Origin: Bacillus sp. es.034
GTDB taxonomy: Bacteria; Bacillota; Bacilli; Bacillales; Bacillaceae_B
Direction of reading: 5' to 3'
Length of the DNA stretch: 64,000 bases
NCBI RefSeq assembly: GCF_002563655.1
Contig: NZ_PDIY01000001.1
Coordinates: 3,880,001-3,944,000, forward strand
The notes beneath the pieces are model-generated. The model saw nothing but the letters and a program-made list of their open reading frames with translations. It was not told the DNA's origin and did not search any database. Of this stretch, positions 43,277-44,874 are shown piece by piece (position 1 is the first letter of the stretch; each line of letters starts with the position of its first letter). Position numbers and translations under genes: made by a program.

Positions 43277-43308
43277 CCCAGTCTACCTCCCCATGTTGAC
43301 TTTCTTTA

Positions 43309-43368
43309 CTATCCGCCTTCTGTCTCCACAGCAGACATCATCTTCTTCATTTGAACCATTACCATCAT
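43309..43368 (-). CDS. Leader micro-ORF just before bmrC (19 codons)
   Basis: The frame encodes MMVMVQMKKMMSAVETEGG, ending 32 nt before the bmrC start. It has an excellent RBS (GAAGGAGGAAAAG). Its methionine-rich start and position recall a leader peptide. Translation may keep the bmrC RBS open or sense ribosome inhibition. Confidence 0.6.
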   Translation of the reverse strand: MMVMVQMKKMMSAVETEGG

Positions 43369-43430
43369 CTTTTCCTCCTTCATAAAAATGGATAATCTAT
43401 GTGTGATCAAGGATTCCCTTGGTTCCACCG

Positions 43431-43533
43431 TTAAGCGCTAAACATACAAAAGACGGACGTCACAGGGCAGTCAGAATCGCATTCTCCAGTTAGGTGAATT
43501 TGAATCTGTTGTGCCATCTAGACGTCCGTCTTC
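43431..43533 (-). other. Second leader segment: 12-bp stem enclosing a possible 28-codon ORF
   Basis: AAGACGGACGTC (minus, 43532-43521) and GACGTCCGTCTT (43461-43450) pair perfectly across 59 nt and are followed by TTGT, a weak terminator. An ATG at 43517 opens a 28-codon frame to 43431 (MAQQIQIHLTGECDSDCPV and onward). It has no clear RBS, so translation is doubtful. The stem may be a second attenuation or processing element. Confidence 0.5.
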
Positions 43534-43544
43534 ATGAATGGACA

Positions 43545-43578
43545 TAAAAAAGCACAGATTATAAACATAACCTGTGCT
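43545..43578 (-). terminator. Attenuator terminator in the bmrCD leader
   Basis: On the minus strand AGCACAG pairs with CTGTGCT and is followed by TTTTTAT. It starts 29 nt after the stop of the first leader ORF and 300 nt before bmrC, so it must be bypassed for bmrCD expression. Ribosome-mediated attenuation is established for B. subtilis bmrBCD. Confidence 0.82.
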
Positions 43579-43606
43579 CGTGGATTCATATGAAATCGTT
43601 AAGGAG

Positions 43607-43681
43607 TTACTGGTCATGTGATGATATGAAATTGATTTGAAAAGTCGCTGCTGCTCCCTGAGATCCGTACACTTTCATCAT
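43607..43681 (-). CDS. bmrB: BmrB-like leader peptide (24 residues)
   Basis: The frame encodes MMKVYGSQGAAATFQI followed by NFISSHDQ. GGAGGG lies 6 nt before the ATG at 43681. A sigma-A promoter lies upstream and an intrinsic terminator directly downstream. This is the layout of the translated regulator BmrB, where drug-stalled ribosomes allow read-through into the exporter genes. I assign the name by position and layout, not by remembered sequence identity. Confidence 0.7.
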   Translation of the reverse strand: MMKVYGSQGAAATFQINFISSHDQ

Positions 43682-43722
43682 CACAAACCCTCCATTCGTT
43701 AGCGTTTTTTATTCCATTAATA

Positions 43723-43751
43723 ACCATACTATAGGACCTTAATTGTGTCAA
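43723..43751 (-). promoter_or_regulatory. Sigma-A promoter of the bmr leader
   Basis: On the minus strand TTGACA (43751-43746) and TATGGT (43728-43723) are separated by 17 bp, giving a start near 43716, about 35 nt before the leader ORF. Confidence 0.78.
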
Positions 43752-43836
43752 TATTATTTTTATTGATAATTTTCTATATACTATGAGTTTCTTCTGTATT
43801 CGTGAACCATCTTTCCTCTACTTCACTACCGTCTTA

Positions 43837-44043
43837 TCATTCCACTTGATTTCCTTTTCTCCTAAAAACTTTTTTGGCGAATATGAAATAAAAAATGAGG
43901 GGCATCGGGCACTGAATGAGTCCCCAAATTCCCCAGAACCAATACTGATGTCCATTCTTACGTGCATCGATGAATAAATAGATGCTTTGGACCAAAAGCA
44001 GGGGAATGACAATCAACAAGATATAAAGCTCTTCTCTTGTCAT
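43837..44043 (-). CDS. yxlD: YxlD-like small membrane protein of the sigY operon
   Basis: A 68-residue protein with two helices (LYILLIVIPLLLVQSIYLFID and WGLIQCPMPLIFYFIFA) and a conserved YWFWGIWG turn between them. It overlaps yxlC by 4 bp. YxlD together with YxlC restrains SigY in B. subtilis; the role here is by analogy. The operon ends here, without yxlE, yxlF or yxlG. Confidence 0.75.
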   Translation of the reverse strand: MTREELYILLIVIPLLLVQSIYLFIDARKNGHQYWFWGIWGLIQCPMPLIFYFIFAKKVFRRKGNQVE

Positions 44044-44357
44044 GTCCGTTTCACCTTTTTCGTATAAGTCAACCCAATAAATATCAAAGCTCCTGCGAAA
44101 ATGAGAACCTGAAGGAGAAGAAATAGAATCGGCATTTGAAACAAAGTAAGAGAGAAAACGGTCAGTAGGCAGCCAGCTAGAAGAAGAAAGAGTATCATAT
44201 CTCGTTTAAATCTTGCTTTTAACCGTTCTTGCTGATCCTCGACCAACTGCTCAAACCATTGCAGAGACGGAGTACTTTCCTCTACTCCACGATCAATGGA
44301 TCGAAAGCCTTCATCTATCAATTCCTTTAGTTCATCATGTACATGTTTGTTGTTCAT
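44040..44357 (-). CDS. yxlC: YxlC-like SigY anti-sigma protein
   Basis: A 105-residue protein. A cytoplasmic amino part with SLQWFEQLVEDQQERLKARFKRD precedes two helices (residues 53-98). Size, topology and overlap with sigY (23 bp) match YxlC, the membrane anti-sigma factor of SigY. It is cotranscribed and coupled with sigY. Confidence 0.78.
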   Translation of the reverse strand: MNNKHVHDELKELIDEGFRSIDRGVEESTPSLQWFEQLVEDQQERLKARFKRDMILFLLLAGCLLTVFSLTLFQMPILFLLLQVLIFAGALIFIGLTYTKKVKRT

Positions 44358-44874
44358 CTATTTTCAACTCCTTTCTCATCCTTGTAATTCCGTGATGGAC
44401 CCTGGATTTAACGGTCCCAGGCGGCAGATCAGTCATTTGCCCGATCTCCTCGTAAGAGTATCCATAATAGTGTTTCAATATAATAGGAAGCCTCACCTCA
44501 TCTGAAAGCCGGCCCAGTGCGGCTAATGCATCATTCCACTCTTCGTTTCTCGATTCCATTTCCCACTTGAGCTTTCTACCACTCATTTCTTCCCTTTTCC
44601 AATCCTTTTCTCTTTTGCTTTTGCGCTGAAGATCGATATACCGATTTGTGGCGATCGTGATCAGCCAGGAGGAAAACTTGGATTTCCCGTTGTATTGTTG
44701 GATTTTCTCCACACACTTAGCCATTGTGTCCTGAGCAAGCTCCTCTGCCAGATCACGATTCATCGTTACTTTGATCAAATACTTCACTAAAAAGGGGTAA
44801 TGTTCTCTAAATAGAAGAGCAAAGGCTTCATGGTTCCCTTTTTTCGCTTGCATAATCCATTTTTTCTCTTCCAT
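44335..44874 (-). CDS. sigY: ECF RNA polymerase sigma factor SigY
   Basis: A 179-residue ECF sigma factor. Region 2 is AFALLFREHYPFLVKYLIKVT, AEELAQDTMAKCVEKIQQY and FSSWLITIATNRYIDLQRK. Region 4 is LPIILKHYYGYSYEEIGQMTDLPPGTVKSRVHHG. A promoter with the SigY-type TGAACG/CGTC elements lies upstream, consistent with autoregulation, and yxlC/yxlD follow. SigY responds to nitrogen starvation and possibly maintains toxin genes in B. subtilis; its target here is unknown. Confidence 0.88.
   Translation of the reverse strand: MEEKKWIMQAKKGNHEAFALLFREHYPFLVKYLIKVTMNRDLAEELAQDTMAKCVEKIQQYNGKSKFSSWLITIATNRYIDLQRKSKREKDWKREEMSGRKLKWEMESRNEEWNDALAALGRLSDEVRLPIILKHYYGYSYEEIGQMTDLPPGTVKSRVHHGITRMRKELKIDEQQTCT

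Follow-up and report, generated by a model that had tools for sequence, protein, structure and literature searches.

A probable two-layer leader of the bmrBCD type upstream of a multidrug exporter operon in Rossellomorea

The operon that encodes the two subunits of a multidrug ABC exporter in a Rossellomorea genome is preceded by a real and well-conserved leader of a known kind. In our reading, to which we assign a probability of about 0.7, this is a two-layer leader of the bmrBCD type, in which a transcription attenuator is followed by a micro-ORF (ORF3) that would be cut by Rae1. Most of this mechanism has been established only in Bacillus subtilis, where the second layer is already known as the bmrX/Rae1 system; the tandem-terminator architecture and the comparative results described below go beyond the published accounts that we found. 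What is new is the conservation of a bmrX-like ORF whose C-terminus can be aligned with that of S1025, the common occurrence of two successive terminators, the doubt that falls on the BmrB reading frame, and a nucleotide motif in the first leader ORF that is independent of the frame.

Results

The bmrCD locus and its leader

The window, a stretch of 64,000 nucleotides (G000:C1:3880001-3944000), comes from a 4.5-Mb one-contig genome; its BmrC is 99% identical to the protein of Rossellomorea vietnamensis NBRC 101237, which places the window in Rossellomorea. The products of bmrC and bmrD align over almost their full length with the solved chains of BmrC (YheI) and BmrD (YheH) from B. subtilis, and on this similarity we identify the genes downstream of the leader as BmrC/BmrD orthologues. 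The leader itself occupies 43277-43760 of the minus strand (Table 1), and as a whole it folds better than 100/100 shuffled sequences (z = -2.5). Directly upstream of it are a sigY ECF sigma factor gene and two small downstream genes that are possibly sigY regulators (44335-44874 and 43837-44357, minus strand). An MFS efflux protein (TIGR00900; 45111-46379, minus strand) with a weak similarity to the Mef macrolide pumps is encoded nearby.

Table 1. Features of the bmrCD leader and operon (positions in the window; SD, Shine-Dalgarno sequence)
Feature	Position	Strand	Remarks
Promoter TTGACA-17-TATGGT	43723..43751	-	Same form in close Rossellomorea relatives
Region 1 (ORF1 SD/start)	43676..43694	-	Pairs with region 2 (anti-antiterminator); 9-bp core 43685-43677 x 43625-43617
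ORF1, attenuator leader peptide MMKVYGSQGAAATFQINFISSHDQ, 24 codons	43607..43681	-	SD GGAGGG 43693-43688; position conserved across class Bacilli
TCAATTTCATAT, instance of the motif ACAAYTKMATAY	43624..43635	-	Within ORF1, just 5' of region 2
Region 2 (ORF1 end)	43602..43627	-	Pairs with region 1 or with the T1 5' arm (antiterminator); covariation
T1, intrinsic terminator (regions 3 + 4) with T run	43546..43579	-	Stem 43579-43550, 13 pairs
T2, second terminator by comparison	43446..43532	-	12-bp outer stem (43532-43521 / 43461-43450), long structured loop, TTTTG tail; encloses rejected ORF2
Short hairpin CAAGG-GAAT-CCTTG	43408..43421	-	Before ORF3 SD; position kept, sequence varies; mean z -1.7 over 68 leaders
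ORF3, bmrX-like micro-ORF MMVMVQMKKMMSAVETEGG-TAG, 19 codons	43309..43368	-	SD AAGGAGG 43380-43374
bmrC SD GGGGAGG	43286..43292	-	Not sequestered
bmrC, heterodimeric multidrug ABC exporter subunit, 585 aa	41519..43276	-	phmmer E 1e-255 to B. subtilis YheI/BmrC chains
bmrD, partner subunit, 672 aa	39504..41522	-	phmmer E 4e-285 to YheH/BmrD chains

The DNA upstream of bmrC was gathered from 80 named genomes and from about 100 more across the class, and a recurrent order was evident: promoter, ORF1, T1, T2, (short hairpin, ORF3) and bmrC. An initial annotation of the leader had listed the promoter, a 24-codon leader ORF with a good ribosome-binding site, an intrinsic terminator and a 19-codon ORF with an excellent ribosome-binding site, all of which we recovered; its count of up to three micro-ORFs is reduced here to two. 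The alignment of related leaders that it had recommended revealed that ORF1, T1, T2 and ORF3 are conserved in this order; the short hairpin and two alternative pairings had not been listed. In some Cytobacillus/Mesobacillus-type leaders (L025, L044, L090) there is a longer repeat-like insert between T2 and ORF3. The sampled members of five families (f18, f36, f21, f30 and f24; at a guess Paenibacillus-, Brevibacillus-, Alicyclobacillus- and Exiguobacterium-like among others) yielded no ORF3, and the leaders read there have ORF1 and the terminators.

ORF1 and the attenuation switch

The leader has the features of a BmrB-type attenuator: an SD-bearing leader ORF upstream of an intrinsic terminator before bmrC, bmrC and bmrD as the downstream genes, and anti-antiterminator and antiterminator pairings that are mutually exclusive. 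The end of ORF1 (region 2) pairs either with the SD region of ORF1 (region 1) or with the 5' arm of T1 (region 3), and the two pairings thus form a classical anti-antiterminator/antiterminator pair. Covariation was assessed by comparing the pairing energy of segments from the same leader with that of segments from different leaders, in a set of 49 leaders picked as dissimilar, a choice that reduces kinship among them and does not remove it. For the 1:2 pairing the leaders' own segments gave -14.9 kcal/mol versus -11.5 for crossed segments, and for 2:3 the values were -9.85 versus -8.50 kcal/mol; in both cases 0/5000 permutations reached the observed mean, and seven control pairings in the same 49 leaders had no covariation signal. 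With orthologous pump genes and covariation of both alternative pairings, the ribosome-mediated attenuation of BmrB type that the initial annotation had proposed is well supported on sequence grounds. The covarying switch also fits the B. subtilis data, where lincomycin-dependent read-through requires both bmrB translation and the terminator, and where read-through falls and the induction by lincomycin is lost once bmrB translation is blocked (PMC4191407).

Such a switch would operate as follows. Without drug, ribosomes would complete ORF1 and cover region 2, allowing T1 (backed by T2) to form and transcription to stop; if ORF1 were untranslated, region 1 would pair with region 2, and again T1, backed by T2, would stop transcription. 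In the presence of an inhibitor, a ribosome slowed early in ORF1 would cover region 1, so that region 2 would be free to pair with the 5' arm of T1, and read-through would result. Read-through that depends on translation inhibitors has been shown only in B. subtilis (PMC4191407); the drug response that we propose for Rossellomorea is drawn by analogy from that species, and a bypass of T2 after read-through at T1 is presumed.

At the peptide level, ORF1 gave no codon-position signal of conservation in the B. subtilis clade. The ORF does contain a nucleotide motif, ACAAYTKMATAY (11-12 nt); most of 71 leaders from throughout the class have it, immediately upstream of region 2 (information 9.0 bits versus 5.7 in shuffles). 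Since it occurs in all three reading frames of the ORF1s (31/22/18), it cannot be a peptide motif, and a polymerase pause or binding site is possible.

The leader frame in B. subtilis

As the B. subtilis reference we took the leader of genome L158, in which BmrC and the PDB sequence are 100% identical. Where ORF1 would be, this leader has a 23-codon ORF with a strong SD (GGAGGGTTTGCT-ATG CCA AGG...); the GTG start of the annotated BmrB (53 aa, 162 nt) lies 16 nt further downstream and opens a different frame. All 11 leaders of the B. subtilis clade retain the SD and ATG of the 23-codon frame; the annotated BmrB start is lost in 4/11, its frame stops early in several, and in more distant Bacillus it is mostly closed and open in a few. 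The published bmrB start-codon mutant had also lost alternative start codons and ribosome-binding sites in the 5'UTR (PMC4191407) and therefore cannot separate the 53-codon from the 23-codon frame; a GFP fusion to the annotated frame gave fluorescence only from a plasmid (PMC4191407). Codon-position counts in the B. subtilis clade gave no coding signal in either frame, so that the re-annotation is one we infer from the conservation of SD and start: the published 53-aa frame is probably not the conserved one.

Two tandem terminators

The 12-bp long-range stem of the initial annotation is a perfect inverted repeat, and a repeat like it appeared in only 8/3000 dinucleotide shuffles of the leader. 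The frame that it was thought to enclose fared less well: ORF2 (43517-43431) was rejected as a gene, as its start is private to this genome, lacks an SD and lies in the stem, and at the position of its ATG close relatives have AAGGC, paired with GCCTT in the opposite arm of the stem. Because the frame inside T2 has these defects and ORF3 lies downstream of T2, the leader does not have a second ORF controlling a second terminator, as a tandem two-ORF attenuator of the mgtCBR-like kind would.

By comparison among genera, we identify the stem as a second terminator. T1 and T2 stand in tandem in most relatives, usually within some tens of nucleotides of each other; T2 takes the form of a compact hairpin, GGCATATCGC..GCGGTATGCC-T6, in many genera, and in Rossellomorea it has a longer stem and a structured loop. 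One could instead regard the 12-bp stem as a structured, riboswitch-like sensor or as a mobile insertion, given that its structured loop measures ~60 nt in Rossellomorea and that the stem matches no Rfam family (the only match, a sub-threshold one, lies elsewhere and is probably due to chance). However, T-rich tails follow the stem, an ordinary short terminator hairpin occupies the same place in other genera, and the leader has no second copy in the genome, all of which makes such a sensor or insertion very improbable. T2 was also rejected as a repeated element, its compact motif being confined to bmrC leaders in the 3/120 genomes of the order that contain it. A pairing of the T1 3' arm with the T2 5' arm found no support as a T2 antiterminator (covariation p 0.79, 49 leaders); that of the spacer with the T2 5' arm was marginal (p 0.05, 49 leaders).

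ORF3, a counterpart of bmrX

In most of the sampled Bacillaceae, bmrC is preceded by an ORF that has a strong SD and ends in a fixed C-terminus. Its N-terminus is free and its length nearly constant, and the C-terminus is nearly invariant: acidic-x-acidic-(S/G)-G-stop. Among 95 distinct peptides, a set selected by this C-terminus, position -1 is Gly in 92, -2 is Gly in 57 and Ser in 34, -3 is Glu in 74 and Asp in 17, -4 is Leu in 57 and Thr in 20, and -5 is Glu in 38, Asp in 17 and Lys in 15; the stops are TAG (75), TAA (12) and TGA (8). Of all 106 distinct strong-SD peptides, 88 terminate with GG or SG; of the remainder, about half come from wrong picks within the B. subtilis clade. Since the four Gly codons all occur in the C-termini, along with several of the Leu codons and each of the three stops, it is residues and not nucleotides that are conserved. 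The Met-richness noted in the initial annotation is not a conserved feature of the ORF. A DNA pattern for ORF3 had matches in 65/249 genomes of the order, versus ten control matches; 37/39 of the in-frame matches that were inspected lie directly before bmrC, the others being one unplaced match and one spurious 9-codon frame, and in this 4.5-Mb genome the motif has a single match.

The B. subtilis leader has an equivalent ORF of 26 codons that ends in KEKIEGG-TGA. Its size agrees with that of bmrX, which reportedly comprises 26 aa and is cleaved by Rae1 within the ORF in a translation- and frame-dependent manner; this cut is said to shut off the bmrCD mRNA that escapes attenuation. From its place between terminator and bmrC, its SD and the C-terminus that it shares with the B. 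subtilis ORF, we identify ORF3 as the counterpart of bmrX. PMC10632193 and PMC12320835 cite work on the cleavage of bmrCD mRNA by Rae1 within a 'new cryptic ORF'; bmrC and bmrD are among seven candidates for direct degradation by Rae1 (PMC10632193), and bmrCD mRNA rises when depletion of a tRNA maturase impairs translation (PMC10100781). By the same analogy, Rae1 would cleave ORF3 in Rossellomorea, and when translation is inhibited ORF3 would be translated less or cut less and the mRNA would survive. The initial annotation had suspected that the second stem and the third ORF add a layer of control. The layer stands, although it is not a new principle, the bmrX/Rae1 system of B. subtilis being known, and it would consist of mRNA cleavage rather than of unmasking of the bmrC SD.

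A translational coupling of ORF3 to bmrC had been suggested as well; it could take the form of ErmC-like attenuation or of termination and reinitiation. The distance from the ORF3 stop to the bmrC start is indeed short (median 33 nt; 16-24 nt in part of the genus Bacillus), but it ranges between 15 and 86 nt, and bmrC is equipped with an SD of its own, a median of 21 nt beyond the ORF3 stop. No hairpin masks this SD: its probability of being unpaired is 0.55 versus 0.61 in shuffled contexts, which makes masking unlikely, and it is not sequestered in a way that a ribosome stalled on ORF3 could relieve. SD masking was therefore rejected, and with ORF3 lacking in the sampled members of Paenibacillus-like and other lineages, we consider any such coupling improbable.

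Somewhat less easily dismissed, though still doubtful, is the idea that ORF3 encodes a nascent-peptide arrest or slow-termination leader, whose acidic-x-acidic-(S/G)-G end would delay release at the stop, so that control over the translation of bmrC or the stability of the mRNA would be exerted by a parked ribosome instead of Rae1. The last five residues and the stop position are conserved while the N-terminus is free and the length near-constant, as in stop-codon arrest peptides, and a C-terminal Gly is over-represented in ORFs where apidaecin causes strong stalling at the stop codon (PMC7544508). A parked ribosome, however, would shift the accessibility of the unsequestered bmrC SD only a little, from 0.55 to 0.65, and Rae1 has been reported to target the orthologue in B. 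subtilis. The two mechanisms do not exclude each other, as a pause could admit Rae1 to the A site.

A possible signature of Rae1 substrates

Cleavage of ORF3 by Rae1, the reading that we prefer, presupposes the enzyme, and Rae1 (NYN_YacP) is encoded in this genome (G000:C1:727037-727525, E 2e-61). It was present in 25/25 genomes tested and, as these include lineages without ORF3, its presence does not discriminate. The first known Rae1 substrate was S1025, a micro-ORF of the yrzI operon. Adjoining B. subtilis yrzI is a 17-codon ORF, MLRMELLMHYTMEKDQV-TAG, which we take to be S1025; in 30 Bacillus genomes it has 16-19 codons, a variable N-terminus and a fixed (E)KDQV-TAG end. When ORF3 and S1025 are aligned at their stops, both have acidic residues at -5 and -3. 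The Glu-Lys codon pair, reportedly the cut site in S1025, is not conserved in ORF3, a point against cleavage there. The Rossellomorea genome also has a yrzI-family gene, adjoined by an S1025-like micro-ORF, MIYVQVKMLNALWVEKDTA-TAA, that ends in VEKDTA-stop (L243:1679-1738, near G000:C1:2368779-2368838) and is a candidate for a second Rae1 target.

The shared design of ORF3 and S1025 suggests a more general proposal, which we hold tentatively and at somewhat less than even odds: that the bmrX-like ORFs and S1025 are one kind of Rae1 substrate, read near termination and marked by acidic residues at -5 and -3, small residues often at -2 and -1, a preference for TAG and a length of ~17-19 codons, and that the textbook BmrB peptide is in the wrong frame. 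No such sequence rule for Rae1 substrates was found in the literature accessible to us. If it is true, one could predict Rae1 targets from their sequence, and the enzyme would be sensing a specific ribosome that is terminating or nearly so.

Discussion

The comparison of these leaders turns a model of drug-pump control that was based on one species into a comparative one. Evolution has kept the pairing of the ORF1 SD with the ORF1 end, the two terminators and the C-terminus of ORF3; it has not kept the leader peptide sequences, the frame in the 12-bp stem or the annotated BmrB frame. The ORF3 C-terminus, moreover, provides a concrete and testable sequence signature for Rae1 substrates.

The leader resembles several known systems and differs from each of them. 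S1025, like ORF3, has 16-19 codons, a free N-terminus, a fixed acidic-x-acidic-x-x-stop C-terminus and a TAG stop, but it ends in EKDQV instead of (E/D)x(E/D)(S/G)G and belongs to a different operon. The bmrX/Rae1 system of B. subtilis (Deves et al. 2023, RNA 29:1108) likewise places a short unannotated ORF, there ending in E-G-G-stop, between the terminator and bmrC, whereas ORF3 is shorter (19 codons), has a much stronger SD and stops with TAG instead of TGA. The bmrBCD leader of B. subtilis (PMC4191407) has the orthologous pump, a leader ORF, alternative hairpins and a terminator before bmrC; in Rossellomorea, by contrast, ORF1 has 24 codons and ends before T1, and two terminators stand in tandem, whereas B. 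subtilis has a T1 that looks decayed, its terminator being found at the T2 position. Finally, the vmlR leader of B. subtilis (PMC9226507) combines an antibiotic-sensing uORF with an anti-antiterminator, an antiterminator and a terminator, as here, but its uORF has 3 codons, it has an SD-sequestering hairpin, and it lacks a counterpart of ORF3.
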